Virus record (IMG/VR): IMGVR_UViG_3300033156_000256
Span: 1-48,558 of that record
Source: a virus
Strand: one strand, 5' to 3'
Length of the DNA: 48,558 nucleotides
Shown: positions 24,434-48,023 of the stretch, piece by piece
How the letters are laid out: every line of letters starts with the position of its first letter
How positions within the stretch are numbered: position 1 is the first letter of the stretch
Notes under the pieces: model-generated
Database searches by the model: none
Seen by the model: the letters and a program-made list of their open reading frames with translations, nothing else
Told to the model about the DNA's origin: nothing
Position numbers and translations under genes: made by a program

Positions 24434-24469
24434 TAGTTAGACGGCTAACTAATCGGTGGCTGGGGGGAA

Positions 24470-24503
24470 TAAGTATTTTAGTATATACTAAAAGTCGAAT
24501 ATG
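24470..24503. repeat. 34-bp direct repeat, copy 1, with 18-bp palindrome
   Basis: Identical over 34 bp to 24553-24586 (83 bp apart, about eight helical turns). The core TTTTAGTATATACTAAAA (24476-24493) is a perfect palindrome. It could be an operator pair, iterons or a recombination site. Confidence 0.85.
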
Positions 24504-24552
24504 GCGTAGAGCTAGTGGGAAAGTAGCGGAGAGCTAGAGTGCGTGTTGAGAG

Positions 24553-24586
24553 TAAGTATTTTAGTATATACTAAAAGTCGAATATG
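24553..24586. repeat. 34-bp direct repeat, copy 2, with 18-bp palindrome
   Basis: Second copy of the 34-bp unit; palindrome at 24559-24576. The spacer between copies carries GAGCTAG twice. The outer bases beyond the 34 bp differ between copies. Confidence 0.85.
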
Positions 24587-25391: not shown

Positions 25392-26021
25392 ATGATGAAA
25401 GAGATGTATGTTGACCGTCAACTGGCCGATGATTTGTGGTTTCTCATGGAAGAATCTCCAGACCCTGTAATAGACTGGACGGCGCTTTCGTGGGTATTAC
25501 TCCAACGGCATTATTCTGGCCCCTATAAGGGCTGGACGGATTGTCCCATGAAGTGGCTGGCCAAGAAGTTGCATTTGGGCTATCCACGTTTGAAAAGGGG
25601 ATTTGACAGGCTGGAAAAATATGGTATAATAGAAAAGGGTAGAGGTGAGGGTTTCAGGCGCATATTGCGCTATCGTTATCAGACGGAGAGGGAGGAGGGA
25701 GTGGCTCGCCCATCGCTAAGAGGCGACGAGTTAGGAGCTTATGGATTGGTGTGGCGCTTCAATCGACAGACCTGGAAGATGGAGGAGATGAAGGTTGCCC
25801 CCAGCGAATATGTGAGTTTTCCCACCTGTAGAGCGTGTGGGCGAGTCTACCATCCTACAGAGGGGCGTGGGCCAGAAGGGTTGTGCGCGGGCTGTTATGT
25901 GAAACAGCGTATGCGAGAGGCGCTTGAGAAGGATGAGTGGCCCCTACATATCGAGGGTCCCTATGGTACCAGGGACTGGTCGAAAAGTGTGGTGATGGAG
26001 TATCTGTGTGATGGGAGTTGA
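25392..26021 (+). CDS. Winged-helix plus zinc-knuckle DNA-binding protein (regulator or initiator)
   Basis: This 209-aa protein has ATGATG at 25392 with AAAGGAGGTGAG upstream; the frame extends further upstream, but that part covers the promoter. Residues about 25-95 look like a winged helix: WTALSWVLLQRH, then PMKWLAKKLHLGYPRLKRGFDRLEKYGIIEKGRG (two helices and wing). Residues about 145-170 have CRACG ... LCAGC, a four-Cys zinc site. First gene of the rightward operon and next to operator-like repeats, so it may be an autoregulator, late-gene activator or replication initiator. Which of these cannot be told from sequence. Confidence 0.7.
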   Translation: MMKEMYVDRQLADDLWFLMEESPDPVIDWTALSWVLLQRHYSGPYKGWTDCPMKWLAKKLHLGYPRLKRGFDRLEKYGIIEKGRGEGFRRILRYRYQTEREEGVARPSLRGDELGAYGLVWRFNRQTWKMEEMKVAPSEYVSFPTCRACGRVYHPTEGRGPEGLCAGCYVKQRMREALEKDEWPLHIEGPYGTRDWSKSVVMEYLCDGS

Positions 26022-26547
26022 GGAGAGGTTGGAGGCTCTCCGTCCCATGCTAACGAGCCGACAGCTCGAATACATATATGCTAGGCGAGAGTGTGGTTCA
26101 GACATAGAGGCGGCGCGTAAGATAGAGTGCAATCCTGCGTCGGTATCTCGTTGGAAGAAGATGCCAGCCTTTGCCGAGGCTTATGAGCTTGTGACGCAGC
26201 CTCTGGCGTTAATCCGAAAGGAAAAGGTTTCTCCTGTTATCGCGCAAAAGAAGCAGGAGTTGATGTCACAGCAGTTGGATGCTGTCATCTCTGTTCTTCC
26301 AGAGATTGTGCAAGAGAATGTGCGTCTTGCTTTGAACGCTCGTAGCGAGTCGACTCGCCTGAAGGCTATCCAAATGTTGTATGATGCGGTTGGATTCAAA
26401 GCGGAAGAGATGATGCCTGTGTCGAAGCAGAGCCAGGTGTTTGTGCAGATGCTTACTCTGATGCGTCCTCAGATAGCCGCTGAGGTTGAGAGGCGCGGGC
26501 TTCCTGTGGATGTAGTGGAGGCGGAGTACGACGATGCCGACGGTTAA
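26011..26547 (+). CDS. Terminase small subunit-like protein (predicted)
   Basis: This 178-aa protein has ATG 26011 overlapping the upstream stop. The N-terminal helix-turn-helix (RRECGSDIEAARKIECNPASVSRWKK-MPAF, about residues 25-55) resembles the 'A-A-x-x-[IL]-x-x-x-x-x-[ST]-V-x-x-W' DNA-binding domain of small terminases. A long helical region follows (LDAVISVLPEIVQENVRLALNARSESTRLKAIQMLYDAVG), suited to ring formation, and an acidic tail. The large subunit lies 4 kb downstream; such separation is unusual but tolerated. A transcription-regulator reading is also possible. Confidence 0.6.
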   Translation: MGVEERLEALRPMLTSRQLEYIYARRECGSDIEAARKIECNPASVSRWKKMPAFAEAYELVTQPLALIRKEKVSPVIAQKKQELMSQQLDAVISVLPEIVQENVRLALNARSESTRLKAIQMLYDAVGFKAEEMMPVSKQSQVFVQMLTLMRPQIAAEVERRGLPVDVVEAEYDDADG

Positions 26548-26865: not shown

Positions 26866-27684
26866 ATGAGTGGTATTGACCTGGAACGACGACATGAGCT
26901 TTGTTTGTATCCGTGTGTGCGGATTCGGACGCCCAAGGCTCTTGGCTCTGGGACGATTCTCTATGTTGAGCAGGTTGATGGTGATGTGTTCGACTGGTAT
27001 GTGTTGACTAACGAGCACGTGGTAGATAATCTCATCGAGATTAAGAAGAAGTGGAACTCGATGCTCAGGAAAGAGGTGAAGGTGGATGTCCTGGGCACGC
27101 CAACGGTAGAGGTTTTCACCTATGCCTATACTAGTCGTACTGTTGGACATAGTGGGCTTCAGGCCGAGATTATGGCTTATGACAAAGAGGAAGACCTGGC
27201 CTTGTTGAGGGTGCAGGCCCCTTATGCGTATGAGTATGTGGCGAAGCTCATTCCTCGTGAGAAGATGCGTGATTTGGTTTCGTTCATGGGTGTCTGGAAC
27301 GTGGGCTGTGGTTTGGGGCAGAAGCCAGTCATTACCTTTGGGTATCTCAGTGCCTTTGGTTGCGAGATTGAGAACAAGGACTACTTTATGATTACGGCTC
27401 CCAGCATCTTTGGGAATAGTGGTGGTGCTACCTTCCTGGAGGAGACTGGGGAGATGATTGGTGTCCCTGCGCGTATCAGTGTGACTCCGCTGGGTTTCTC
27501 GGCGGATGTGGTGACGCATATGGGCTTCAGCATCACTGCTGAGCGTATCTACCAGTTTTTGGATGACCAGATTTTCGATTTCGTGTATGGTTCGGGGCGT
27601 ACTTCTGAGGAGTGTGCGGAGGAGCGTAAGGCTAAGAGAGAGGCTGACCTGCGGCATACTGCGGAGAGGGATGAGGATGAATAA
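26866..27684 (+). CDS. Trypsin-fold (HtrA-like) serine protease
   Basis: This 272-aa protein has ATG 26866 after AGGAGGTG. The chymotrypsin-fold catalytic triad is readable in order: LTNEHVVDN (His 51), YDKEEDLALLRV (Asp 110) and FGNSGGATF (Ser 185 in GNSGG). There is no signal peptide and no PDZ domain. The C-terminal 40 residues are charged and helical (EECAEERKAKREADLRH). It sits between small and large terminase genes, where phages often encode a capsid maturation protease, but those are of other folds (S78, S49, U9). Options: a new prohead protease, a cytoplasmic regulator-cleaving enzyme or a defence-related protein. Confidence 0.8.
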   Translation: MSGIDLERRHELCLYPCVRIRTPKALGSGTILYVEQVDGDVFDWYVLTNEHVVDNLIEIKKKWNSMLRKEVKVDVLGTPTVEVFTYAYTSRTVGHSGLQAEIMAYDKEEDLALLRVQAPYAYEYVAKLIPREKMRDLVSFMGVWNVGCGLGQKPVITFGYLSAFGCEIENKDYFMITAPSIFGNSGGATFLEETGEMIGVPARISVTPLGFSADVVTHMGFSITAERIYQFLDDQIFDFVYGSGRTSEECAEERKAKREADLRHTAERDEDE

Positions 27685-27962: not shown

Positions 27963-29411
27963 GTGAAAAGGGTTTTCGCTGTTCTGCTCTTTCTGCTCGC
28001 TGTTCTGCCTGCTAAGGCGGATGGAAGTGTAACGCTATGGAGGGACCATACTGTTGTTGTCTCTTGGCGTAGCTTCCATGTGGGCGATGGGAAGTTTAAT
28101 TGGGACAAGTTGGATAGGATGCTCTATGAGCGAAGGCCAGCGCATCTTATCGTTCTAAATGCCACTCCTGAAGCTGACTTGACTCCTCCTTTTGTTAGTT
28201 CTCGGATGCCTCTGATAGTTCCTCCGTTTGGTAGGTTTGCTACTGCAAGTCATATCTTTGAGGCTTGTGGGCGCAAGTGGTATGTCTCTCGTTACGATGA
28301 CTATATCTGGAGGCGCTTCTATAGGCAGATGGTAGAGGCTTTAGCTGAGCGTTATGATGGTAGTGAGTTGCTTGATTCTGTGGTAATCAGCATTGGTTTG
28401 GATGGGGAGCCGCAGTTGGTGAAGACGATAGGCGGCTGTCATCCGACCGTGCCTATTTCAGGGCTGGAGCACGCTTTTGGTAAGTTTGTCGAGGAGCTGA
28501 TTCTCTTTTATGCCGAGAAGTGGAAGCATACGCAGGTGTATGTGCAGGTGGCAGTAGGTGGAGCCTGGCGTGCGCGTTTGGCGCAGTTGGCTATTGAAAA
28601 TGGTTTGGGTGTAAAACATGCGGGGCTGACAGAGGACTTTCTTGGTTGGGCTTCCTCTGGTCTGACGGGCGATGGTAGTTTTGATGGCGTTTATCTGGCT
28701 CAGGGTAAGGTTCCTATCTGTCTAGAGACGAAGCATGGTATGGGCAGCTTAGAGCAGAAAAGAGAGATTGTTCTCGCTGGTTTGGGTATGAATCCCTCTA
28801 GGATGATTCTTCATAACGAGTATGGAGAGCTAGGTTCTGAGTTTCTGGAGTGGGTAGAGGCGCATGTAGAGGGGCTTCCTACTGTGTGGGCGTCTTATCG
28901 TGAGGTGCGTAGTGACCCTCGTTGTTGGACTGGTTATAACAAGATACGTCGCTGTGTGGACTATCGTCAGGGATATGATAACCAGGGGTTGGAAGTGACC
29001 AAACAGCAAGATGGGTTTTTGTTTACTGTAAAACAGGACTATTTCTATCCTAGCTATAGAGTATCTGTTACTTGGTATGATAAGGAGTCGTGGCGTTTTC
29101 AGTATGGTACTGAGTCGTATGAGGTGCTCTCTCATGGAAGCGGCGAGTTAGTAACGAGCGTGTTTGAGAATGTGCCTGGACAGTTCTTTTTGGAAGGGCC
29201 AGTGCAGTGGGATTTTGTAGAGGTAGAGGGAATGAAGGAGGCTCCTCCGCTTACTCCGACACCATCTCCTACTCCGACACCAACCCCTACTCCATCTCCT
29301 GTGTGTGCTCCGTGTGTTGAGGAAGTCCAGGCTTTGAGAGGATGTTTGTTTAAATTGTTTGGTGGTGAGTTGTGGGATGTTTTGATAATGGTGGTTCCTA
29401 GACAACCGTAG
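27963..29411 (+). CDS. Secreted glycoside-hydrolase-like protein with Thr/Pro linker
   Basis: This 482-aa protein has a GTG start at 27963 and a weak ribosome site (AGAGG). A clear signal peptide MKRVFAVLLFLLAVLPAKA ends in A-K-A. Residues 25-300 resemble a TIM-barrel hydrolase of the GH42/GH5 kind: NWDKLDRML, ISIGLDGEP (Glu near 155) and HNEYGELG (Glu near 286) are candidate acid/base and nucleophile. A beta domain with aromatic residues follows (about 345-410), then a Thr-Pro repeat (PLTPTPSPTPTPTPTPSP) and a short Cys-containing end with a hydrophobic stretch. Export implies it acts on the outer side: surface glycan trimming or anchoring. It is a moron-like insertion among packaging genes. 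Confidence 0.65.
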   Translation: MKRVFAVLLFLLAVLPAKADGSVTLWRDHTVVVSWRSFHVGDGKFNWDKLDRMLYERRPAHLIVLNATPEADLTPPFVSSRMPLIVPPFGRFATASHIFEACGRKWYVSRYDDYIWRRFYRQMVEALAERYDGSELLDSVVISIGLDGEPQLVKTIGGCHPTVPISGLEHAFGKFVEELILFYAEKWKHTQVYVQVAVGGAWRARLAQLAIENGLGVKHAGLTEDFLGWASSGLTGDGSFDGVYLAQGKVPICLETKHGMGSLEQKREIVLAGLGMNPSRMILHNEYGELGSEFLEWVEAHVEGLPTVWASYREVRSDPRCWTGYNKIRRCVDYRQGYDNQGLEVTKQQDGFLFTVKQDYFYPSYRVSVTWYDKESWRFQYGTESYEVLSHGSGELVTSVFENVPGQFFLEGPVQWDFVEVEGMKEAPPLTPTPSPTPTPTPTPSPVCAPCVEEVQALRGCLFKLFGGELWDVLIMVVPRQP

Positions 29412-29419
29412 GAGGAGAA

Positions 29420-29686
29420 ATGGCAACTAGGAGTAGGCTTCCCTGGGGACCTAGCAGGGAACCTAATTTTAAGGAGTGGAAGATAACTCGTCGTCCCAAG
29501 GGATTTATAAGACGAAAGAAGCAGAGGGCTCCTAATCGTTATGGTAGGGCGGTATACTACACTACCTTTTACCCTTCTGCTCCTCGTGTCAAGCCCGATT
29601 TGACTTATTCTAGTAAGTCTGGTCGTAAACGTCGTAGGACTAAATCTGCTCATCGTCGACGTAGGACTAGGCGTACTCGTAGGTAG
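29420..29686 (+). CDS. Very basic small protein 1 (QRAPNRYG motif)
   Basis: This 88-aa protein has an ATG after GGAGGAG. It is strongly basic, with an Arg/Lys-rich middle and end (RKRRRTKSAHRRRRTRRTRR). It contains KKQRAPNRYGRAVYYT at about residue 33, a motif found twice in the fourth gene of this run. It is disordered apart from that motif. It resembles protamine- or core-type DNA-neutralising proteins in composition only. Confidence 0.7.
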   Translation: MATRSRLPWGPSREPNFKEWKITRRPKGFIRRKKQRAPNRYGRAVYYTTFYPSAPRVKPDLTYSSKSGRKRRRTKSAHRRRRTRRTRR

Positions 29687-29704
29687 TTGGAAATAGGAGG
29701 AGAA

Positions 29705-29980
29705 ATGGTAACTAGACGTTATGTTAGGATTGGTGGGCGCGGGCGGCGTCGTACCCGACGGGCGGTTTCAACTGCTACTGGGGGGCCTGCTAGAAAACGT
29801 CGGTGGATGCCTCCTAATGTTCCGAGGCGTGGGCGTCCACCACGGATGCCTCCTGGCTGGCCTCATCCTTATCGGCCTAGGCCCAAGTCTAGAAAGGGAA
29901 GGACGGTGCGTCGTCCTAAGTATGGCAGGGTTACTAGGCGTGGTGTGCGAAGGACTAGAAGGGTGGCGCGTAGGCGGTAG
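29705..29980 (+). CDS. Very basic small protein 2 (35% Arg)
   Basis: This 91-aa protein starts at ATG 29705 behind GGAGGAG. It has 32 Arg and 4 Lys, and no Asp or Glu. Most of the rest is Pro, Gly, Thr and Val (RRGRPPRMPPGWPHPYRPRP). It carries no recognisable fold. Composition like that of protamines; probable DNA or RNA binding, perhaps in the virion (inference). Confidence 0.65.
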   Translation: MVTRRYVRIGGRGRRRTRRAVSTATGGPARKRRWMPPNVPRRGRPPRMPPGWPHPYRPRPKSRKGRTVRRPKYGRVTRRGVRRTRRVARRR

Positions 29981-29982
29981 AA

Positions 29983-30153
29983 ATGCCTTTTCGTAGCGAG
30001 AAACAGCGGCGCTATATGTGGTTGCATCACCCAGAGATAGCGCGGCGCTGGTCGAGAGAATACGGCTCTAAGCCTGTAAAGAGGAAGAAGAAGAGAAGAA
30101 AGAAGGGAAGAAGGAGGGCGAGGCGGAAGGGGAAGTGGCCTTCTCACACCTGA
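29983..30153 (+). CDS. Very basic small protein 3 (SEKQRRYMWLHHPEIA motif)
   Basis: This 56-aa protein starts at ATG 29983, 2 nt after the previous stop. The N-terminus MPFRSEKQRRYMWLHHPEIARRW fits a motif I know from many phage proteins (S-x-x-Q-R-R-[WY]-x-[WY]-x-x-HPEIA). The C-terminus is a Lys/Arg run (KPVKRKKKRRKKGRRRARRKGK). It is too short for common ORF cut-offs, but gene spacing and the motif make it convincing. Confidence 0.75.
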   Translation: MPFRSEKQRRYMWLHHPEIARRWSREYGSKPVKRKKKRRKKGRRRARRKGKWPSHT

Positions 30154-30193
30154 GAATCTCTCGAAGCTCGTCTCGCCCTCTTATGGAGGTGTG

Positions 30194-30559
30194 ATGGTAC
30201 AAAAGAGTAAGGGGCGTAGTACCCCTAGAAGGAAGCAGCGTGCTCCAAATAGGTATGGACAGAGCGTGTATTATACTCGTAGTAGGCGTCGTAGGAAAAC
30301 TAAGTCTGTTCCTGCGAGTCCTCGTAACCCCAAGGCTAAGTCTCGCCCTTCGTATAGGCAGACGTCGCGAAAGACGCGCTATCGTAGGCAGCGTGCTCCT
30401 AACCTTTATGGTAGTCCTGTTGGTTATACTATGTATGGTCCTGTAGTCTATCCTTATGTTCCTTGGGGAGGTTCTAGGTACGTTACTATACGTCATGGCG
30501 GTGTTTCTCGTGTTCCTCCTGCTGAGTTGCGGCGTCGTAGACAGATGGGGTGGTGGTAG
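30194..30559 (+). CDS. Very basic small protein 4 (two QRAPN-YG motifs)
   Basis: This 121-aa protein has ATG 30194 with GGAGGT just upstream. It has two copies of the motif seen in protein 1: KQRAPNRYGQSVYYT near residue 14 and RQRAPNLYGSPVGYT near 65, separated by an Arg/Ser/Lys-rich linker. A Tyr/Pro/Val-rich part (YTMYGPVVYPYVPWGG) and an RRRRQMGWW end follow. Only one acidic residue. It probably arose by duplication from the same unit as protein 1. Confidence 0.7.
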   Translation: MVQKSKGRSTPRRKQRAPNRYGQSVYYTRSRRRRKTKSVPASPRNPKAKSRPSYRQTSRKTRYRRQRAPNLYGSPVGYTMYGPVVYPYVPWGGSRYVTIRHGGVSRVPPAELRRRRQMGWW

Positions 30560-30562
30560 GTT

Positions 30563-30784
30563 ATGGCAAGACGGAAGAAGAGACGGCGTAAGGCGCACCC
30601 TGGTTTTAAGGCAGTGCAGTCGCAGATTGCGCGGCGGCAGGGTATTTCTAAAGAACGGGCTGGGGCTATTTTGGCGGCTGCTACGCGGCGGGCAAGCCCT
30701 GCGGCAAAGCGTCGTAATCCTCGTTTGAAGCGTGTGAAGGGAAAGCCTAAGAAAAAGAGACGGAGGCGGAGTAGTCGACGGTAG
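30563..30784 (+). CDS. Very basic small protein 5 (QGISKERAGAILAAATRRAS motif)
   Basis: This 73-aa protein abuts the terminase gene. A Lys/Arg run leads into a small helical unit F-K-A-V-x-x-x-I-A-R-x-Q-G-I-S-K-E-R-A-G-A-I-L-A (residues 15-40), then A-S-P-A-A-K-R-x-N-P-R-L-K-R-V, and a final basic tail. That helical unit recurs in phage proteins of many hosts (recollection). Likely DNA-binding, placed right before the packaging motor. Confidence 0.75.
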   Translation: MARRKKRRRKAHPGFKAVQSQIARRQGISKERAGAILAAATRRASPAAKRRNPRLKRVKGKPKKKRRRRSSRR

Positions 30785-32461
30785 ATGGCGGAAGCTGGAC
30801 TTCAGGGAATAGGGCATATACCCTATGAGAAGGATGAATACTGGGAGTATTGTGTAGACTATCTTGGGTATCAGTGTCTTACTAAGTCTGAAGTCTACGA
30901 GAGATTAGGGTATAAGCCTCTACCAACAATAGAGAAGATGCACCGCTCTCGTGCGATTCACCGCATTTTGGTGGGTGGAAACCGTGCGGGGAAGACGTAT
31001 GGTGCAATGATGGAGATTATTCCCTACCTGTTCTGGATAGGGACCCGTGGTTGGGTTGTCTCTGCCAATTACGAGATGGCTGAAGAGTTGAGGCGGAAGG
31101 TGGAGGATATTCTGACAGAGCGCGCTGGTATGGAGCGTGTTTTGAAGTCTACAGACCTTTCGCCCTGGCAGTTTAGCTACAGTCTCAAGAACCGTCTCTT
31201 TACGATGGGTACTGGCTCTTGGTTTCAGTTGAAGTCAGCGGAGTCGCCAGAATCTATGCATGCTGTTCCGTTGGATTGGATAGTGGTGGATGAGGCGGCT
31301 CTGTTGCCTTATATCTTGTATGATACTCGTTTAGTACCTCGTCTAGCTGACTCTGGTGGGTGGATTCTCTCTATTGGTACGTTTGAGTGGTTGCGGGGTG
31401 AATGGTTTGAGGAGTATTTTGATATAGGGCAGGTTGAGAACGACCTGAGCATTGAGTCATGGTCTCACCCTACAGAGGATAACTACCACGTCTATACGGC
31501 CAGAGGAGGGGAGACGCCAGAGGAAGTGGGCGCGGAGTATCACAAGAACTGGAAGAGGCTTGTAGAGGAAAACCCAGATGTCGAGTGGCCTCTGCGTCCT
31601 GGACAGCAGGTAATTATTTGGAATATCGACTTCGCCTGGTTGGAGGAGCAGCGCAAGCGCGTGCCCCCAGAGATTTTTGCTGCTCGTTATGAGGCGAAGC
31701 GAGCTACTAGTCCCTATATCGTCTTTCCTGATTGGAATATAGCGGATTTTGTTGATAAAGATAGGGCCTCTTTTGACCCAGAGCTTCCCGTCTTTCTTGC
31801 TGTGGACCCTGGTGGGACGTATGCTGTTGCAGCTTGTCAGTTTAAGAAGTTTCCTGATGTAGGCCAGGATAATGAGTTGACAGGTGGCTATTCTTTATGT
31901 ATAATAGATGAGGTGTATTTTCAGAGCACTGTTACGACACACGAAGTGTATGATGTTGTTTGTAATAGGGAGTGGTGGAGCAACGTAGCTAGGTGGTGTT
32001 ATCCTCACTGGCCTGGTATGCAGGGGGCTATTGATGTGGCTGCTAAGGAGCAGGCCAGGGTGTGGGAGCGTTTGGGGCATGAGGATGAGATTGTTCGTGG
32101 GCTGCATCTTATGAGGCAGAAGGTACAGCAGCAGGCTGGTATTCAGACTTTGCAGCATTTCTTGGATACCCATAGTATCTTTGTTCATCCTAGATGTACT
32201 TTTTGGAATCTGGAGATGCGGCGTTGGACATATCCGATTCCTGCGCTTCAGGGTGTCGAGACGGAGGACCCGCGAAAGTCTGAGCCGAAGGATGCTTGGA
32301 ACCATCTAGTAAAGGCAGTTATCTATTTGATTGTGAATCGTTATGGGTATTATGGGCGTAGCGGCTCTTCGGCGGTGGTTTCTCGTTTTGACGTTCGCTC
32401 TCGGCGTAAAGAGGCTAGAGAGGGCATGATGCGCGCTGTGGTAAGTAGGTTTAAGAAGTAG
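30785..32461 (+). CDS. terL: Terminase large subunit
   Basis: This 558-aa packaging motor ATPase-nuclease has ATG 30785, directly after the previous stop. Walker A is LVGGNRAGKT (residues 62-71), with an adenine-motif-like Q/Tyr region before it. Walker B is DWIVVDEA (164-171), and a coupling segment follows (SIGTFEW). The nuclease domain starts at FLAVDPGG near 340 (first catalytic Asp), with a later AIDVAAKEQAR region (second Asp) and a C-terminal WNHLVKAVIYLI helix. It is full length for the family. The basic small-protein run lies just before it and the portal 8 nt after it. Confidence 0.93.
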   Translation: MAEAGLQGIGHIPYEKDEYWEYCVDYLGYQCLTKSEVYERLGYKPLPTIEKMHRSRAIHRILVGGNRAGKTYGAMMEIIPYLFWIGTRGWVVSANYEMAEELRRKVEDILTERAGMERVLKSTDLSPWQFSYSLKNRLFTMGTGSWFQLKSAESPESMHAVPLDWIVVDEAALLPYILYDTRLVPRLADSGGWILSIGTFEWLRGEWFEEYFDIGQVENDLSIESWSHPTEDNYHVYTARGGETPEEVGAEYHKNWKRLVEENPDVEWPLRPGQQVIIWNIDFAWLEEQRKRVPPEIFAARYEAKRATSPYIVFPDWNIADFVDKDRASFDPELPVFLAVDPGGTYAVAACQFKKFPDVGQDNELTGGYSLCIIDEVYFQSTVTTHEVYDVVCNREWWSNVARWCYPHWPGMQGAIDVAAKEQARVWERLGHEDEIVRGLHLMRQKVQQQAGIQTLQHFLDTHSIFVHPRCTFWNLEMRRWTYPIPALQGVETEDPRKSEPKDAWNHLVKAVIYLIVNRYGYYGRSGSSAVVSRFDVRSRRKEAREGMMRAVVSRFKK

Positions 32462-32468
32462 AGGGAAG

Positions 32469-34277
32469 ATGACGATACAAACAGTTGATGATTTGCAAGT
32501 CAAGCTCCGTGATTTGGAGAGCTTCTATATGCAGCGCAACCAGAATATGCTCGCTTGGCGAGACTTGTATTTCATGCGCAAAGAGGCTGTCTGGTTTGAT
32601 GAGAATGGGCTGTATGTCGACCCAGAGCCAGACGAAGAGCGGATTGTGCTGCCTGTTGGTTACAATGTTGTAGAAGGCTTCCGAGAGCTTCTCTTAACGA
32701 AGCCCCCTGTAATCTCGGTGCCTCCTCCGACTGTTGAGGGGCAGATGCTGGTGCAGGCCGAGCACAACGAGCGTGCGCTTTTCGCCATCTGGGATAGGGC
32801 GCACATTTATGAGCGTCTAGTGGACAGCTTGTGGCATGGGCTAGTAGATGGCTGGGGCGTCTTGCAGGTGGTGTGGGATGCTTCGCAAATGGATGAGAGC
32901 GGCTCTCCTATCGTTGTTTTGCATCACGACCCGTACAATGTTTATGCTCTTCCTGGTGATGTTCCTGATACTTGGAAGTATGTGATTCATGCTTACCCTC
33001 GGTTGGTGGGACATATCAAGGAGGAGTGGCTTAGTAAGGTGCGAGATAAACGCAAGCGTGCGACGCGCATTGCGGAGGATGCTTTTGAGGGTTTGAAAGA
33101 TACGGAAGAGGTTACCTTTATCGACTATTGGGACGATACAATTAATGCCGTTGCTCTCTCCTTTACAGCGGATGATGGTAGGGGAGGTACGGTGTTGGAG
33201 ACTCGCTGGATAAAGGAGCCTACGAAGCACGGTTATGGCTTCCTTCCCTGGGAGATTTATCTTCCCTGTCGTCTGCCTTTCCGTACTGTAGGCGAGCGTA
33301 TGGGGGTGGGTATTCTCTACGTTATTGAGGAGATTGTAAAGTATCTTTCTCGACTGGTGAGCCAGAAGGCTACGATGGTAGGACGCTATCAGGACCCGCC
33401 GTTGGTAACGAAAACGGAGCTTGGGCCTGATTTTGAGCCAGTTAGAACGGAGCGGGGGATGCACTTGCGGTTGCGTATTGAAGAGGATGCACAGTATTTG
33501 CAGCACCCTGGCCCGATGCCGCAGATTGATTCCTTGAGTGTGCAGATAGCGGAGCAGATTGAGGCGTCTTCTCTCCCCCGCGCCTTGCAGGGAATGTATG
33601 TTGGCTCGATTTCTGGTATTGCTATGTCGCTGTTGCGTAACCCGACACTGATGAAGGTGGCTTTTCGTCAGGCAGCTATTGAGCGTGCTGCTGAGTCGTT
33701 GAACGTCAAGATTTTGAAGCTCCTGGAGCGTAAGCTAACGAAGCCGTTGTATCTCTGGGGCCGAGGGCCGACTGGTGAGGGTATTGATGTAATGATTGAC
33801 CCTGACAAGATTAGTGGTTACTATCGTAACGAGGTGAAGCTCTCGGCTAGTCTGCCAACGGATGATGCTAATACGGTTAACATGTTGGCGTCGTTGGTGC
33901 AATTGCAGATTATCAGTCGTCAGACGGCACGAGATGTGGCGCAGCAGACGCTACACGATTTGGTGCCTCAGTCGCTGATAGACGAAGAGGAGAGGATATT
34001 GGCTGAGATGATTTGGAATGACCCAGGGATGATTCAATCTCTAGCGCAAGCTGCTGCGCAGAAGTTGCAGTTGGCTTATCTTCCCAAGGGTGAGAATCCG
34101 CGTGGGGGCTATGGTGAGAAAGAGGTGACGATGCCCGCTCCTACGCTTCCGTCTCAAACGCCTGGGATGCCAGGCGGCAATACGCAGCCGAGCATGACGC
34201 AGAGGCTGCAAGAGATGGCTCAGCGCATAGCTCCGACAGGCGCAATTAGTAGACTTGTTGAGGAGAAGGTTCAATAG
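32469..34277 (+). CDS. Portal protein
   Basis: This 602-aa protein forms the dodecameric ring at the capsid vertex that DNA passes through. N-terminal helices (VKLRDLESFYMQRNQNMLAWRDLYFM) precede the wing/stem region; YNVVEGFRELLLTKPPVISVPP is the kind of segment seen in many portals, and the following HNERALFAIWDRA and W-G-V-L-Q-V-V-W-D segments also fit. A long helical portion (AEQIEASSLPRALQGMYVGSISGIAMSLLR) is likely stem/tunnel. A Pro/Gln/Gly-rich tail ends it. Size and position after TerL are normal for short-tailed phage portals. Family assignment is by layout and general pattern. Confidence 0.85.
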   Translation: MTIQTVDDLQVKLRDLESFYMQRNQNMLAWRDLYFMRKEAVWFDENGLYVDPEPDEERIVLPVGYNVVEGFRELLLTKPPVISVPPPTVEGQMLVQAEHNERALFAIWDRAHIYERLVDSLWHGLVDGWGVLQVVWDASQMDESGSPIVVLHHDPYNVYALPGDVPDTWKYVIHAYPRLVGHIKEEWLSKVRDKRKRATRIAEDAFEGLKDTEEVTFIDYWDDTINAVALSFTADDGRGGTVLETRWIKEPTKHGYGFLPWEIYLPCRLPFRTVGERMGVGILYVIEEIVKYLSRLVSQKATMVGRYQDPPLVTKTELGPDFEPVRTERGMHLRLRIEEDAQYLQHPGPMPQIDSLSVQIAEQIEASSLPRALQGMYVGSISGIAMSLLRNPTLMKVAFRQAAIERAAESLNVKILKLLERKLTKPLYLWGRGPTGEGIDVMIDPDKISGYYRNEVKLSASLPTDDANTVNMLASLVQLQIISRQTARDVAQQTLHDLVPQSLIDEEERILAEMIWNDPGMIQSLAQAAAQKLQLAYLPKGENPRGGYGEKEVTMPAPTLPSQTPGMPGGNTQPSMTQRLQEMAQRIAPTGAISRLVEEKVQ

Positions 34278-34534
34278 TGTTATCGGATAAGGCTCTGACT
34301 CGTGCTCAAGGGACGATAGAGAATGCGATGCGTCATCTTCAAGAGAGGTTTCCGATGCAGTCGGAACCTCAGCGTCAGCGTTTGACTAAGGACCAGCAGT
34401 TGGAGCTGTTTATGAATATGAGTGATGGAGATTTGGAGATTCTGCGTCAGAAGAAGGGAGATGCAGAGTTTAAGAGGTATGTGGAAGCGATGCTACGTTT
34501 AGCAAGGAGTAGAGGATATGGCGCTACCTTATGA
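34277..34534 (+). CDS. Small helical protein after the portal, hypothetical
   Basis: This 85-aa protein has a GTG start overlapping the portal stop by one base, and overlaps the next gene by 17 nt. Helical and charged (RAQGTIENAMRHLQERF, DQQLELFMNMSDGDLEILRQKKG, FKRYVEAMLRLARSR). The spacing and size would suit a small virion or assembly factor. No family is recognised. Confidence 0.7.
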   Translation: MLSDKALTRAQGTIENAMRHLQERFPMQSEPQRQRLTKDQQLELFMNMSDGDLEILRQKKGDAEFKRYVEAMLRLARSRGYGATL

Positions 34535-37500
34535 GGAGTTTCTGTATCTATTAGAAGATGAGGAAGAAAAGAAGAAGAAAGAGGAGAAGGCTAAGAAACG
34601 TCGTCGTGCTGGTCGCGGCGAGGTAGAGGGCGCTACTACTGAAGAGGTAGAGCGAGAGCAGACTAGAAAGGCTCAGGAGTCTAAGAAGCGGCGAGAAGAA
34701 AAGAAGAAAGCTGAGCCTAAACCTCAGCCTAAGCCCCAACCCAAATCTAAGCCTAAATCGAAGCCTAAGCCCAAAGGGAGAGCGAAAGAAGAGAAGGGGC
34801 CGAGGAAGCGTAAGGCGGATGAGTTAACAGAGAAGGATAAGAGACTTCTCAGTTCGATGATGATGGATATGGCTAGATATGTGGCTCAGTGGTGGGCTAA
34901 ACAACATGCTAGTCCAGAGGAGTATGGTAGGAATCCTATTGATTGGACAAGAGACCAAGTTAAGCGTCTTCTTGGTAAAGATGATGATAATGAGCCTCCC
35001 ACTGGCGGTGTTGGTGGTGGGGGCGGGCTTGTGGAGCTTCCTGAGTGGGAGCAGAATCTGGACAACATCGGTATGGCTCTTGCTCTTCTTGGGACTCTCG
35101 GCTCCGCTGGTCTGGGAGCGCCTGCTCTTGCTGCCGCTGCCGCAGGTTTCACGCCTCCTTCTCTTGAGGATTATGTTCCTGAGATGGCTGAGATGTGGAA
35201 GAACCTGGAGTGGTTGCAGGAGGCTAGAAAGCAGGAGGTTCCTGAGTATAGGTACGAAGACCTTCCCTTCTCTCCTAACGAGGCGTCTGATTTGTCTGAG
35301 GCGTATAGGGCCTGGCAGGAGTGGGCAAGTTCAGTAGGCGAAGGCTATAACCAGCCAGGCTATCAGCCCTATGAGCCTTTGTTGTCGCTTCTTGGTATGG
35401 AACCTCCTCAAGGAGTGGAAGATTGGTTTCCTCTTTCTGCTACAGAACCACTATCTGGTGCGCAGACTTTAGAGCTTCCTCCTTGGTTCCCTGAAAGCGC
35501 GGGCGTGCCTGAAGGAGAGCCTCTTGCGTTACCTGAAGGTGGTGAAGAGGGAGTGGGGAGTGAGGGAGGAGAAGGCGGGGACGAGGGCATTCCACCCTCT
35601 CTTATTAGCCCTCCTCTTCCGCCATTTGGTGGTATAGGGGAGTTGGTGGCGTATTTCGCTAAGCAAGGGCAGCAGCCTTTCCCTGAGCCTCTGCCTGGTC
35701 AGCCTGAGATTTTCCCGTGGCTTGTCACGCCAACTGGTGTGGGAGGTTTCACGGCGTTTCCTTGGTTGAATACTGAAGATGCGGCGGCTCCTGTGCCAGA
35801 GCCAGAGTTTCCTGCGTTTGACTATAGTGAAATGCCTGAGCCGTCGAAGGGTGCGTTTGAGGCTCCTGAGACAGTTACTCCGCAGGAAGTGTATGACTTG
35901 TTGAGTACTATCATGCCCGAAGGGTTAGAGACTCCTCCAGAAGCGCCCGCTCCTCAAGGGGTGTATGAGGCGCTTAGTGGCCTGGTCCCTGAAGGATTAG
36001 AAACTCCGCCTGAAATTGTCACTCCTCAAGAAGTGTATGACTTGCTTAGTACTATTATGCCTGAGCGTATGGAGCAGCCGCCTCAGCCAGAGCGTCCAGT
36101 GATGCCTGAAGAGACGATGCCTATAAGTTCGTATGAGGGCTGGATGCCTAAGCTGCTGGAGACTCCTCCTCAAACAGTGACGCCTCAGGAGGTGTATGAG
36201 ACGTTAAGTAGTTTGCTTCCTGAGCGTATGGAGCAGGCCCCTGTTGTGGTGGAGGGTGCCGATTTTGGAGAAGCTCCAGTGGTGTCTCCTGGTGGTGGAG
36301 AGATTCCTATTGAGACAGGGCCTACTGGTGGTGCTGTTCCATTTGTTGGAGAGCTTCCTGAAGGTGCCGAAGCTCCTCCTGTAGTAACAGAAGCTGGACA
36401 GGTTCCTATTGAAACTGGTGCTAGTGGTAGTGGGGTGGGTATGTGGTTGAATCTGCCACAGACTGGACCCGTCTTTATTCCGTTTGAGTATCAGCAAGAG
36501 ATGTTTCAGGGAGGTGTGCAGGCTATCGTTCCTGAGACTGGGCCTTATGGTGAGCCTATATCTGAGCCTGTAGTTGGTACTTGGTTAGTTTCGCCAGAAG
36601 TAGGCCCTGTCTTCCTTCCTATTTCTTCTCCTGAGAGGATGGAGACTGTTGTGGATAGGCCCGTAATGCCAGAGGAGACGATGCCTGTAACTTCGTATGA
36701 GGGCTGGGTGCCTGAGTTGTTGCAGACTCCTCCCCAGCCTACTGGACAGCCTGAGCCTTTCGTGGAATATCAGTTGATGTCTGTTATTCCTGAAGGATTG
36801 GAAATGCCATTGGCTCCTCCAACAGCTACCCCCCAAGTGACGGGGGAGGCTACGGTAGGTGCTGGTATTATGCCTCCTGAGCAACAACAGCAATATCTGC
36901 CTTTTGTTCAGGCTGGTGCGCAGCCTCCAGTAACTGGACAGGCTACAGTGGATGCTGGTGTTGTGCCTTCTGTGACTGGGCAGGCGACTGTAGGTGCAGG
37001 TATTGTGCCTAGTTCTGCGCCTTCTGTGGATGAGATTGCTGGAATAATGGGCGGTGCTGATAAAGAACAGCAGGAAGCTCCTCCTCCTATTCCGCCTGAG
37101 CCAGGTGCTGGTGTTCAACCCCCTGTTGGTGGTGGCGGCGGTGTCCAACCTCCTGGGACTGGTGGGGGGAGAGGTACCACTCCAGTGCCTAGTAGAGGAA
37201 GAGAGGCTGCTCCAGTATCTAATAGAGGAAGGGAGGCTGTTCCAGTGCCTAATAGGGGGAGAGAAGCTAAAGAGCTTCCGCCAGGGGTTGTTGGTCAGCC
37301 CGTTCCACCTGAGCCTGTTGGTGGTGTTGTAGGTGAGCCTGCTAGTGGTGTGATAGAACCAAGAGCAATTAGTACTGCTACTGGTGAGGCTTCTACTGCT
37401 GGCGGGGCAAGAGTCTGGAATGCGCCCCAGGCTGTGTCAGGGGGCTTTAGGCCAGGTAGGGCGACGTTCTGGCCTTGGGTGCCAGAGGATATTGTGAACA

Positions 37501-38225
37501 GCCAGGGGGAGCAGTATGCGAAGGCCCAAGACCCGTATCGTGCTGGTCGAGAAGACCAGGTATATGAGTATTGGGACCCGCTGACGGGGCAATTTTATCG
37601 TATAGATGCCCAGACTGGTGAGACGCTGACGCGAGAAGAGTACTATCGTCGTTACCATCCTGAGTACTATCAGAAAGTTTATGTTGAAGGGCGGGGAAAC
37701 CCCCCACCTCCAGAGTCACCAGTGCCATCTAATCCTCCTGCTCCTCAGAACGTCCCGAATTACGGATATGGTAGTGGTGGTTGGGGCGGGGGTGCTACGC
37801 CCGCTACACAGTCTGATATTGGCTCGCTTGCCTGGTGGCCAACCTCTTCCTCGATTCAGCCTCTCTTGCGGGGCTGGGCGAGCTGGTTGAAAGAGTTGCT
37901 TGAATCGTCTCCTGAGATGCCACCAAACCCGTTTGCGATGGACAACGAGGCGATGGCTGCTCTCTCTAATATCGACGCCAGCGGGCCTGGTGTGTATCCA
38001 GGTTATTCGACGAGTTTGGAGGTGATACAAGATTTGCAGCGTCGTTTGGGTATTGAGTTTGGAGAAGATGAAGGGCCGCTAAGTATGTGGCAGAGGGTGA
38101 TTAATGCTATTCCGAGAGCGGGTTTAGCAGAACAGCAGATGTTGGCGTCGCTCAGATACGACCCTAATACGAAGTCGTGGTATTCAGTAGACATTGGACA
38201 GTTGTTGAATCCTAAGTATACGTAA
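34518..38225 (+). CDS. 1235-aa Pro/Glu-rich repeat protein, probable internal virion protein
   Basis: The N-terminal part (residues 10-110) is a Lys/Glu/Arg stretch with a K-P-K-P ladder. The middle is Pro/Glu/Gly-rich. Several copies of a unit containing PQ-[EG]-VY-[DE]-x-L-S-x-[IL]-[MLV]-P-E occur at about 35875-36235, with an EETMP-[IV]-[ST]-SYEGW-[MV]-P segment repeated near 36110 and 36670. VTGxATVxAG is present three times (36834-37000), and N/S-RGREA three times (37190-37270). The C-terminal 260 residues look folded. No enzyme motif is visible. Sitting between portal and scaffold, it is likely a flexible internal or ejected protein. Confidence 0.75.
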   Translation: MALPYEEFLYLLEDEEEKKKKEEKAKKRRRAGRGEVEGATTEEVEREQTRKAQESKKRREEKKKAEPKPQPKPQPKSKPKSKPKPKGRAKEEKGPRKRKADELTEKDKRLLSSMMMDMARYVAQWWAKQHASPEEYGRNPIDWTRDQVKRLLGKDDDNEPPTGGVGGGGGLVELPEWEQNLDNIGMALALLGTLGSAGLGAPALAAAAAGFTPPSLEDYVPEMAEMWKNLEWLQEARKQEVPEYRYEDLPFSPNEASDLSEAYRAWQEWASSVGEGYNQPGYQPYEPLLSLLGMEPPQGVEDWFPLSATEPLSGAQTLELPPWFPESAGVPEGEPLALPEGGEEGVGSEGGEGGDEGIPPSLISPPLPPFGGIGELVAYFAKQGQQPFPEPLPGQPEIFPWLVTPTGVGGFTAFPWLNTEDAAAPVPEPEFPAFDYSEMPEPSKGAFEAPETVTPQEVYDLLSTIMPEGLETPPEAPAPQGVYEALSGLVPEGLETPPEIVTPQEVYDLLSTIMPERMEQPPQPERPVMPEETMPISSYEGWMPKLLETPPQTVTPQEVYETLSSLLPERMEQAPVVVEGADFGEAPVVSPGGGEIPIETGPTGGAVPFVGELPEGAEAPPVVTEAGQVPIETGASGSGVGMWLNLPQTGPVFIPFEYQQEMFQGGVQAIVPETGPYGEPISEPVVGTWLVSPEVGPVFLPISSPERMETVVDRPVMPEETMPVTSYEGWVPELLQTPPQPTGQPEPFVEYQLMSVIPEGLEMPLAPPTATPQVTGEATVGAGIMPPEQQQQYLPFVQAGAQPPVTGQATVDAGVVPSVTGQATVGAGIVPSSAPSVDEIAGIMGGADKEQQEAPPPIPPEPGAGVQPPVGGGGGVQPPGTGGGRGTTPVPSRGREAAPVSNRGREAVPVPNRGREAKELPPGVVGQPVPPEPVGGVVGEPASGVIEPRAISTATGEASTAGGARVWNAPQAVSGGFRPGRATFWPWVPEDIVNSQGEQYAKAQDPYRAGREDQVYEYWDPLTGQFYRIDAQTGETLTREEYYRRYHPEYYQKVYVEGRGNPPPPESPVPSNPPAPQNVPNYGYGSGGWGGGATPATQSDIGSLAWWPTSSSIQPLLRGWASWLKELLESSPEMPPNPFAMDNEAMAALSNIDASGPGVYPGYSTSLEVIQDLQRRLGIEFGEDEGPLSMWQRVINAIPRAGLAEQQMLASLRYDPNTKSWYSVDIGQLLNPKYT

Positions 38226-41200
38226 TGGCAAACATTGCAAGTGCTGGTGGTGGTGTAGGGGGCAACGTTTCTAAGGGGCAGTCTCTTCTTGAGGCTGTTC
38301 TAAAGAAGCGCGAAAAACAAAAGGTGACTGGTACTGCGACTGTGCAGGCTGGCATTCCTTCGTATGCTGATACACAGCCGCAGACTAGTGACGTTTCTAA
38401 CATTCTCTCTAAACCAAGGGACAAGAAAAAAGAGAAGAAGGCTGTCTCTGCTACTGCGGCTGTCGCAGCGGCTACTACGGGTTTCGATGTAGAAAAGCCT
38501 GATTTTACGGCTGATGATGTCTGGGCCGAGTGGCTTCAGATTTCCAAAGAGACAGAAGACGAGAGGGAGGATGAGGATGTCCTCGGCCAGCGAGATGTTC
38601 CTTGGTGGGAGTATGCTGATGAGTACCCGAAGAAGTTTACGCCAGAGGAGATTTTCGGCTCTGGCGTGGTTGATACGGCCTGGACTGAAGGGGAGATTGA
38701 AGCCTGGGCGCAGGCGGAAGTAGCAGAAGAGGCTGAGACAGAAAAGGAAGAGAAGCCTTCTCTTTGGGAGAATATTCAGGCGTGGGCGAAAAAGACGGCG
38801 GAGAAAGTGGTGGATGTTGCTGTCTCTGTCGTCGAGCCTGTGGAGGAGAACCCTGTCGAGGCGGTTCCTGCTTTCCTCAACTATCTGTGGGGCTGGCCCT
38901 TTGGAGAAGAGGATAGGGGGAAGTTTTGGAAGGCTGTTCCTTACTATGGCTTCCAGTTTGGTGAAGATGCTCTGAAGCGTGTTGTAGGGATGGCTATGGA
39001 AATGGGTACTGTGCCTCGGCTGTCTGAGGGCGGTGGCGAATGGCTTGGCCTGAAGTATGCTCTTCTGATGCAGGGCAATTATGTTGAGGCTGTTGAAGAG
39101 CAGTTTGTCCCTGGTACGATGACTGAGGAGGAGAGGGAGAGGGAGATTGAGGCTGCTAGGAAAGCGCAGGAGGAGTTTAACAGGCTTTTTGAGAAGTATA
39201 AGCAGCAGGGCCTCTCAGATACTGAGGCGATGTATCGCGCTGGCCAAGAGGCAGCGGAGAAAGAGGAGTATGGTATTGTCGCCTCTAAGCCTTGGTTTGG
39301 TGGCGAGTCTACTCCTGAATCTCCTATTCCCTGGTCTGAAGAGGTTGAGAAGGCGTGGGACTTGTCTGCTGGATTCCGCTACTCTCATGCCATTCGTCCA
39401 GAGCTGCGAGATGCGTTTCTCGACCTTCTAGAGAAGGGGGTGTCTCCTGCTGAGGCTGGTAGGCAAACAGAGGACCCGATTGTTGAGTTGGCTGCTGGAC
39501 TCCTTATGGACCCTTACTGGGTACTCCCTGTTGATAACTTGATAGTAGGAGCGGTATGGGGAGCTGTTAAGGAAGTAGCTGATGTCTTAGTAGATATAGG
39601 GCTGAAGGTGCCCGTTATCAAAGGTGGTTTGCAATGGGCTGGGGAGTTGACGGCCCGCACTAACGCTAACTATGCGGCTCGTTATGTAGACGATGCCTTG
39701 CACTTTATCAGGGGCTATGCTGATAGGATTGGTGCTGACATCTCGGAGGAGTTTGTTGAGCGGATTCTCAAGAATCCTCCTGTCGACATGTTGCGCGATG
39801 CACCGTCATACTATTGTCGTGCTATTCGTAATGCTGCTGACTATATTGATGAAGTGCTGGCGGCGTTGCGAAAGACGTTTAGTGATGATGCTTTGGAAGC
39901 GGCTATTAAGAAGAAGGCGGCGGAGCTTGCTCGTGTAACAGCCGAAAAAGTAGACCCTGATGAGATTGTCAAATTGGCTGACAAAGAGTTGTGGGACAAG
40001 GCTTTGCGTAACGCTAGTTTGAATGCTTATGCGGCGGCTGTCAAAGCGTATACGAAAGCGCACCCGACAGTCGGTAAAGTTCTTCGGGCGTCTAAGCCGA
40101 TACAAAACGTGTTGCAGTTTGGTAAGGGCCTGATGGTGGATACCTGGCTTGGTTTGCGCCCCTCTTGGAATGTGTTCAACTTTGTTGATAATCAAGTGAA
40201 GTTGTTGCTGGATGGTGTTAATCCTTTCAACAAGTTGGACAGACTACTGCAACGCTATACGACATACTCTCCTGAGATGTTGGGTGCTCTTGATGCTCTT
40301 GACACGATTCGTGGAACGAAGTTTTGGAATCTCAGTACCACAAGCCATAAAACTTATCAAGAGGCGTTACAGAAGCTGCTCCCGAAGCAGGCATTGGGTA
40401 CCTTTGGAGAGGAGCTTTTCACGGAAGCTAAGCCCTCTTTCCTCCAGAAACTTCCTATCTCTAAACAGACGATTGATTGGAATAGGACATTAGCTGGCCG
40501 TATCGAGATGCCAGCGCGTGCTAGGAAATACCTTGCCTCTTTCTTTGAGTATTTGGATAAAGGTTATGATGACATCGTTAAGCGCGTACCACAAGTCAAG
40601 ATAGGTGACACGACGTATAGGCTGTCTGGTGCTGCTGTTGAGGCGTTACGGGCGCGACTTAGAAGAGTACGCAACCCTACTGTTAATGCTGTTACGCGAG
40701 CTGTAGATGACTTACTACTAGACGGAGAGGTGGTGATTACTCCGCGTCTTGGTGCGGATTTTGGAGAGACGCTGGCGGCGTTGCCCACTGATATTGTCAA
40801 AGGAGTACAAAAGGCTCTCGATGACTTGGCGGTGCTTAGCACCCGTTCGGAAGGTAAGGTAACGCGAGCGCAGATTGTGCAGATATTTGACGATGCTGCG
40901 GAGCAGATTCGTCGAGCTTATGATGAGACAGTTCAGTCTGGCATACGGGCTTTTGAGGATACTTTGCCAGAGCTTCCTGAATCGACTGACGAGACGTATC
41001 GTCTTCTTGTCAGGTCGGAGAAGCCGTCTCTTGAAGAGCTGATGCGCGCTATTGATGACATGCCCGCTCTTGCTCGTCGGGCTTCTCTAGAAAACCAGAA
41101 GGCGTCTCAGGCGCACTGGAATAGGATTAGAAAGCTGAAGGCGGCAAAAGCGCCCCCCAGGGAGATTGCTGAAGCGCAAGACGCTTTCCTTCTTCAAGAC

Positions 41201-46871: not shown

Positions 46872-48023
46872 GTGGCTACTGTATATCAAGGACTAGAGAC
46901 GAGTTACACTGGTGCTGTAACCGTCATTAGGCAACTAGAGTCGCATATTGATAACTATAGCCCGAAGGAGTTTCCGCTGTTGCGAAGGGTAGGTTTTAAC
47001 TCCTACTCCGAGCCTGTGACGAATACCAAGGTGGAGTGGCAGCGCGATGAGTTGATGCCGCTTACTGATGCTCTAAATGGAGCGGTGAGCAGCACTACGG
47101 ATACTCAGATTACTGTTGATAATGCTGAGTACTTTGCGTTGCATGATGTCATCTTGGTGGACAGTGAGCTGATGCTTGTTGTGTCGTCGGATGCGGATAA
47201 CAACTACTTGCAAGTCGTGCGCGGCTTTGCGGGTAGTACGGCGGCTACTCACTCGGATAATGCTGTAGTGTATCGTCTTGGTGCTGCTCGTCCCGAAGGC
47301 TCCAGTCCTGGTTGGTCGCAGCAAATCGCTGTCACCCAGCCATACAACTACACCCAGATTTGGGATGCGGTTGTGAGCATTTCGGGTACTGAGGAGGCGC
47401 TGAAGAATTATGCTCCTGATGACTTGTTGGCTTACCGTCTTGACAAGCGTATGGCTGAGCTGTATATGATGATGGAGCGTGCGTTGCTCTATAACAGCAA
47501 GCGGTATGCTGGTTCAGCGACGGCTGGCCGCATGAGTGCGGGGCTAGACTTCTTCGTGGCTGACAAGAACAATCTTTCCTCGGCGGCTATTACGTTCGAT
47601 GACATCGAGGATGCCATGCAGGATAAGTTCAGTTCGTTTGGCTTGGCGCATGTACCCGACACCTTGTGGGTAAACGCCTGGGTTAAGCGGAAGATTTCCT
47701 CGTGGGGCGCTTCGACGATTCGGACGGATAGGGCTGAGAACGTTATCGGCAACGAGATTACCGTTATCGAGACTAACTTCGGTACGCTCTCAGTAGAGCT
47801 AGACCATCTCGTGTTGCCTTCTCACGCCTGGTTGTTGAACATGTCTACGGTTCAGATGGCTCCTCTCCAGGGCCGAGGGCTGAAAGAGATTGACGCCTCG
47901 ATTCCTGGTGATGACCTGATTCGTCGACGTGTGCTGGGTGAGTACGTCTTTGTCATCAAGGGTGAGGACGGTACGAACGACGGCCTGAACGTGAAGATTT
48001 ATGGTATTAGCACGACTACCTAA
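46872..48023 (+). CDS. Major capsid protein, SU10/DUF5309-like
   Basis: This 383-aa protein has a GTG start with GGAGGT at 46861-46866. HK97-fold shell subunit of the SU10/DUF5309 type: N-terminal arm (YQGLETSYTGAVTVIRQLESHIDNYSPKEFPLLRRVG), then a KVEWQRDELMP segment before an inserted beta domain (about residues 75-140, VDNAEYFALHDVILVDSEL to VYRLG). The helical P-domain stretch follows (DKRMAELYMMMERALLYNSKR), and a strand-rich end carries NVIGNEITVIETNFG and the typical DLIRRRVLGEYVFVIKGEDG tail. It is full length; there is no N-terminal delta domain, consistent with a separate scaffold. Confidence 0.88.
   Translation: MATVYQGLETSYTGAVTVIRQLESHIDNYSPKEFPLLRRVGFNSYSEPVTNTKVEWQRDELMPLTDALNGAVSSTTDTQITVDNAEYFALHDVILVDSELMLVVSSDADNNYLQVVRGFAGSTAATHSDNAVVYRLGAARPEGSSPGWSQQIAVTQPYNYTQIWDAVVSISGTEEALKNYAPDDLLAYRLDKRMAELYMMMERALLYNSKRYAGSATAGRMSAGLDFFVADKNNLSSAAITFDDIEDAMQDKFSSFGLAHVPDTLWVNAWVKRKISSWGASTIRTDRAENVIGNEITVIETNFGTLSVELDHLVLPSHAWLLNMSTVQMAPLQGRGLKEIDASIPGDDLIRRRVLGEYVFVIKGEDGTNDGLNVKIYGISTTT

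Follow-up and report, generated by a model that had tools for sequence, protein, structure and literature searches.

What does a phage gain from five consecutive small genes for strongly basic proteins placed directly ahead of its large terminase gene? The locus lies in an IMG/VR virus record of 48,558 bases, the whole of which is called the window here. Genes for the capsid, portal, terminase large subunit (terL) and terminase small subunit (terS) were identified in it by profile searches, and the window represents all or most of a tailed-phage genome. The terS gene (26008..26547; phrog_2538, E 1.8e-8), terL (30785..32461; phrog_2, E 2.9e-22), the portal gene (32469..34277; phrog_64, E 9.4e-6, with SPP1_portal below cut-off) and a major capsid protein gene of the SU10 type (46872..48023; PF17236, E 4.5e-51) all lie on the plus strand, where a sigma-70-like promoter upstream of terS (25603..25630) agrees with the consensus at 12/12 positions and is known from that consensus match only. 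The other strand carries genes for a family A DNA polymerase, a primase, a DnaB-like helicase and a ribonucleotide reductase. No prophage relative of this terL was found in genome contigs.

The run occupies positions 29420-30784, between terS and terL, and comprises open reading frames of 88, 91, 56, 121 and 73 aa, designated P1 to P5. A sequence-only reading of this DNA had described five consecutive basic frames ahead of the terminase, one of them with 32 Arg in 91 aa, and a near-absence of acidic residues; all five are present, the Arg count is exact for P2, and the summed 429 residues include 157 Lys+Arg and 8 Asp+Glu. Individually the proteins contain 27-44% Lys+Arg and have net charges of +21 to +36. 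P1 to P5 are real open frames with good starts and ribosome sites, P2 starting at the ATG at 29705 rather than at the TTG with which its longest frame begins, and the ATG of terL at 30785 follows directly after the P5 stop codon. The ribosome site and start of P1 (29409-29430, plus strand) and of P2 (29694..29715, plus strand, direct repeat D4) are identical at 21/22 positions, the common sequence being TAGGAGGAGAAATGG[C/T]AACTAG. A gene-model script returned exactly the P1-P5 run, and on the opposite strand of the window it detected no basic run exceeding a single gene. The ratio R/(R+K) is 0.72 in P1, 0.89 in P2 and 0.76 in P4 versus 0.57 in the large proteins of the window, so the Arg bias of these three exceeds what genome composition would give.

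The five proteins belong to more than one family. Common descent of all five was considered and rejected, as only the P1-P4 pair passed a shuffle test. P1 (29420..29686, plus strand; 88 aa, 23 R and 9 K, 36% K+R, net +29), which carries RAPNRYGRAVYYT, and P4 (30194..30559, plus strand; 121 aa, net +32), with a Tyr/Pro/Gly-rich and less basic C-terminus, align with z = 7 against shuffles and, judged by their sequences, are paralogues. The motif RAPNxYGxxVxYT occurs once in P1 and twice in P4, and the DNA encoding its RAPNxYG part forms a 44-nt direct repeat family, D1, with copies at 29521..29564 (plus strand), 30235-30278 and 30388-30431 that are 66-73% identical over the 44 nt. P2 (29705..29980, plus strand; 91 aa, 32 R, no D or E, net +36) has its ribosome site and start in common with P1, and beyond these the two are alike in composition only. 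Neither P3 nor P5 has a match among the other proteins of the run.

No match at all to P1, P2 or P4 was obtained in Pfam and PHROG scans, the RAPNxYGxxVxYT motif was absent from the viral and genome collections in motif scans, and no relative of P4 was found among viral contigs. Searches of phage records by tblastn with P1 and P4 returned nothing, a result weakened by the BLAST low-complexity filter, and P2 had no tblastn match among the fetched loci. On these sequence comparisons P1 and P4 are provisionally regarded as orphans in the searched collections; the same status is less certain for P2, since this protein was compared with Pfam, PHROGs and the fetched loci only. The description of the whole run as protamine-like suits P1, P2 and parts of P4, and fails for P5 and P3, which have predicted helical cores with basic tails. 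Among viral protamine-like proteins, baculovirus P6.9 resembles the Arg-rich members in its Arg richness, its almost complete lack of acidic residues and its proposed function in DNA neutralisation, but it is a protein of a eukaryotic virus and no homology is claimed; P6.9 has been described as Arg/Ser-rich and as subject to control through phosphorylation (PMC6163548), whereas P2 is Arg/Pro/Gly-rich.

P3 (29983..30153, plus strand; 56 aa, net +21) consists of a MPFRSxxQRRxMWxxHPxxAxxW core followed by a K/R tail. Two alignments (A5 and A6) place the family core MPF.S..Q...M....P..A..W at its N-terminus, the search seed having included part of this motif, and the core with a K/R tail was found in 17 IMG/VR stretches under a strict pattern. 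The neighbours of these genes are usually portal, scaffold-like, major head or terminase genes, with roles read from gene order and sequence and not in every case from profile matches, and in L132 and L133 the P3-type gene is the last of a three-gene basic run. The predicted structure of P3 has two helices (pLDDT 73), and its Pfam and PHROG scans gave nothing significant.

P5 (30563..30784, plus strand; 73 aa, net +31) has a basic N-terminal tail, an HPGFKAVQ...NPRLKRVKG core and a basic C-terminal tail. The NPRLKRVKG pattern, which was also the search seed for the family, occurs in more than 119 IMG/VR stretches among the matches listed, nearly all of them with the core HPGFKAVQxxIAxxxGxSxxxAGAILAxxxRxASxxAKxxNPRLKRVKG, and the P5 core is among the commoner small phage proteins in IMG/VR. 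In an alignment of 69 sequences P5 has the invariant R..S..A...NPRLKRVKG columns, and it is up to about 81% identical to its relatives over the core. P5 is thus a full member of a family that is unnamed and without a Pfam model, differing from most members, which are bare cores of about 50 aa, in its added basic tails at both ends. Versions with basic tails lie upstream of terS/terL in L019 and L108, Bradyrhizobium phage ppBeUSDA76-2 has a bare core upstream of its terminase gene, and the core domain is also embedded in proteins that are larger or not basic, Atu_ph07 gp544 being an example. Among 121 large genes flanking P5-core relatives, those that could be named belong mainly to major head, terminase and portal families, for which the counts overlap.

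Nothing significant was found for P5 in Pfam and PHROG scans, and the families listed for the 69 core members included no convincing Pfam match and no HU-family match. An AlphaFold model of P5 has four helices with a mean pLDDT of 83 and looser tails. In a search of solved structures, mostly HU-type nucleoid proteins headed the results at E 3.3 or worse; an HU-like fold or HU/IHF membership was rejected as not significant (E >= 3.3), and the predicted resemblance is at most a lead. Ubiquitin matches of the P5 profile among solved structures were likewise set aside, their strong E-values being sums over polyubiquitin repeats only. In a viral library, the only significant matches were other members of the family, all uncharacterised.

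A related terL is present in eight IMG/VR contigs, of which five distinct ones (L002/L003, L004, L005, L007 and L011) include DNA upstream of it. A small basic protein is encoded within 1 kb upstream of terL in all of them (5/5), with a P3-like core in three, a KCSNGKYRIG-type core in L005 and a VP2-like core in L011. The P3-like gene abuts terL in L004 and lies 0.8-0.9 kb upstream of it in L002/L003 and L007, the KCSNGKYRIG-type protein of L005 (46 aa) is encoded by a frame that overlaps terL, and so is the 74-aa protein of L011, which has the MARRKKRRR start of P5, a KRRKRRRR end and a different core, WIQRAIKHPGALRRQLGV. As a small basic protein is found before every one of these terL genes with differing cores, the slot is retained while the core is exchanged. 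Five genes occupy the slot only in the window among these relatives; the nearest relative (71% terL identity) has a P3-like gene alone there, so four of the five genes are not conserved even nearby.

The core of the L011 protein defines a family (WIQKAIKxPGALR) with more than 120 IMG/VR matches among those listed, and 39 of 53 members match PF25632, the fusellovirus VP2 profile, with a best E of 1.1e-6. The L011 protein itself scores 16 bits (E 0.015) against a curated cut-off of 27, and the profile also responds in 5 of 14 control genomes at E <= 1; the VP2 link therefore rests on the family as a whole. P1 to P5 had no match to PF25632 in the window at E <= 1 and none in hmmscan, and for this reason they are not classed as VP2. 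VP2 of SSV1 is a DNA-binding protein of the virion; unrelated viruses of archaea and bacteria encode homologues of it, and it has been reported as dispensable (PMC5748691, PMC4158269, PMC9608457), while a study in which vp2 appeared essential is also cited (PMC9608457). Fusellovirus VP2 and its phage homologues are small, very basic and scattered over unrelated viruses, and a VP2-like protein with the start of P5 occupies the slot before the related terL in L011. The likeness has limits: SSV1 is not a tailed phage, and one such protein is reported from it, as against five in the window with other cores.

The sequence-only reading had suggested that a multi-gene virion condensation cassette would be new. 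Novelty of a multi-gene run is not supported, nor is this run unique, since similar runs were found in other phage contigs. When the gene-model script was applied to every locus, five or six small basic genes stood in a row in eleven fetched loci besides the window (L173, L186, L048, L053, L102, L103, L116, L128, L213, L222 and L229), some of which are near-identical. By the criterion of at least five consecutive small genes with K+R >= 24% among packaging or head genes, that of the window belongs to the basic-gene runs of phage head modules. Runs of at least five were found in 6 of 147 de-duplicated motif-bearing strands versus 0.23 expected when gene order was shuffled within loci, a figure that describes clustering and not frequency in phages at large, because the loci were chosen for holding such a protein. 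In L173, L186, L213 and L222 the five- or six-gene run includes a VP2-like WIQKAIKxPGALR protein, and an ORF of about 836 aa lies upstream of the run in L186 and L213.

A comparable run is present in the cultured Pelagibacter phage HTVC027P, in which the portal gene gp43 is followed by gp44-gp52 (L152 4905-7216); six of these have 25-42% K+R and net charges of +15 to +27, and the run includes one DUF5872-like protein, one DUF6321 protein and one with a VP2-like core. The name DUF5872 was met in the searched literature in a giant algal virus paper only. Both phages have consecutive small genes within the head module, several of them strongly basic, but the HTVC027P run is Lys-rich, follows the portal gene, draws on other families and has some non-basic members, whereas that of the window is Arg-rich and precedes terL. 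From the IMG/VR loci and HTVC027P together, the run is a recurring arrangement. A constant place before terL, which had been raised as a point to check, is not supported, as only one gene of this sort precedes terL in the nearest relatives and the other runs lie around portal or major head genes. The window stands out for its Arg richness, for the location of the run ahead of terL and for the provisionally orphan P1 and P4; the Arg-rich version is new to the searched collections, and the basic-gene run as a kind is not.

We infer that P1 to P5 are expressed, enter the virion, bind DNA and affect packaging, and we give an even chance to the run being a late, exchangeable, accessory set of small virion-associated nucleic-acid-binding proteins. 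Its location between terS and terL on one strand, and the occurrence of the same protein classes beside major head, portal and terminase genes elsewhere, argue for this reading, and the late timing is suggested by the place in the genome. P1 to P5 would be made together with the head and packaging proteins, P3 and P5 as small helical modules with Lys/Arg tails, and P1, P2 and P4 as Arg-rich chains that are probably largely disordered, P1 and P4 presumably having arisen by duplication. They would probably bind phage DNA without sequence preference, be packaged with or on it, and help to neutralise and organise it. The set would be exchangeable and probably dispensable, as reported for SSV1 VP2, and its patchy, swap-prone distribution suggests a role that is helpful but dispensable. 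Of the earlier proposal of a virion cassette, the virion or packaging role gains from the place in the packaging and head module and from the VP2-related class in a relative's slot, and neither the novelty of a multi-gene run nor a fixed place before terL is supported. Against a virion role, the terS-terL interval also holds accessory-looking genes, for secreted-looking proteins and a trypsin-like protease, so location alone is no proof of head function. The missing PF25632 matches of P1 to P5, the non-significant HU resemblance of P5, the loss of four of the five genes in the nearest relative and the P5-core domains in larger or non-basic proteins also count against it.

The same location would suit head-assembly or packaging helpers that are absent from the mature virion: basic peptides with the terminase, the portal, the scaffold or the acidic inside of the procapsid as partner, or with the concatemer as their target at the packaging motor. 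The run lies directly beside terL with immediate translational junctions, such genes in other phages adjoin portal, scaffold-like and major head genes, and P5 and P3 have predicted folded cores that simple neutralisation would not need. The cores are freely swapped among relatives with similar terL, which argues against a specific protein partner, and we regard assembly helpers as unlikely. Slightly less likely still are host-directed accessory genes, whose basic products would shut the host cell down by coating or compacting its DNA or by binding to its RNA or ribosomes: the patchy distribution, orphan P1 and P4 and paralogous duplication are typical of accessory genes, and other accessory-looking genes share the interval, but genes for host takeover are as a rule early and at a distance from the packaging module, and those considered here belong to the head module both in the window and in several independent phages. 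Small genes that evolve fast under weak constraint and have no dedicated role, or partly spurious frames, are the least probable explanation. In their favour, P1 and P4 are without a relative in the searched collections, basic tails cost little to evolve and drifted sequence could give a high Arg content; against them, the ribosome sites are strong, the genes closely packed, the P3 and P5 cores conserved, Arg use above the genome level and the clustering beyond chance.

The usual description of tailed phages is that, with a few exceptions, they pack DNA that is almost naked and balanced by cations. Set beside the favoured reading of virion-associated DNA-binding proteins, a wider proposal is tentative and rather less probable, namely that tailed phages widely carry unrecognised modular virion nucleoid proteins that are exchanged among head-module slots and coat the packaged DNA. 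These would include VP2-like proteins, P5-core and P3-core proteins, DUF5872/DUF6321-like proteins and Arg-rich orphans, with the window as an extreme Arg-rich case. If head-adjacent basic runs do encode proteins that bind DNA in the virion, a role would be given to a large class of phage ORFs now lacking annotation, with a link to the archaeal VP2 system, and the question is directly testable in cultured carriers such as HTVC027P.

Several other features of the window were recorded. The gene at 26866-27684, between terS and terL, encodes a trypsin-like serine protease (PF13365, E 3.7e-13) that may act in head maturation or be secreted; L002 has a clear counterpart in the equivalent position (1637-2476). 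The 482-aa product of 27963-29411, encoded immediately ahead of the basic run, has a signal-like segment at its N-terminus, weakly resembles a glycosyl hydrolase 42 domain (below cut-off) and contains a Pro/Thr repeat followed by a hydrophobic C-terminus. A second 12/12 sigma-70-like site, TTGACA-17-TATAAT, lies inside the terL gene at 31877-31905. The interval between portal and capsid genes (34518-46165) contains two very large genes, of 1235 and 2646 aa, in an unusual place for such genes, and the first of these had no Pfam or PHROGs match. At 24456-24586, within a stretch that codes poorly and marks a switch of coding strand and GC skew, a pair of 48-nt repeats, each with the perfect palindrome TTTTAGTATATACTAAAA, looks like an operator pair or an origin region.
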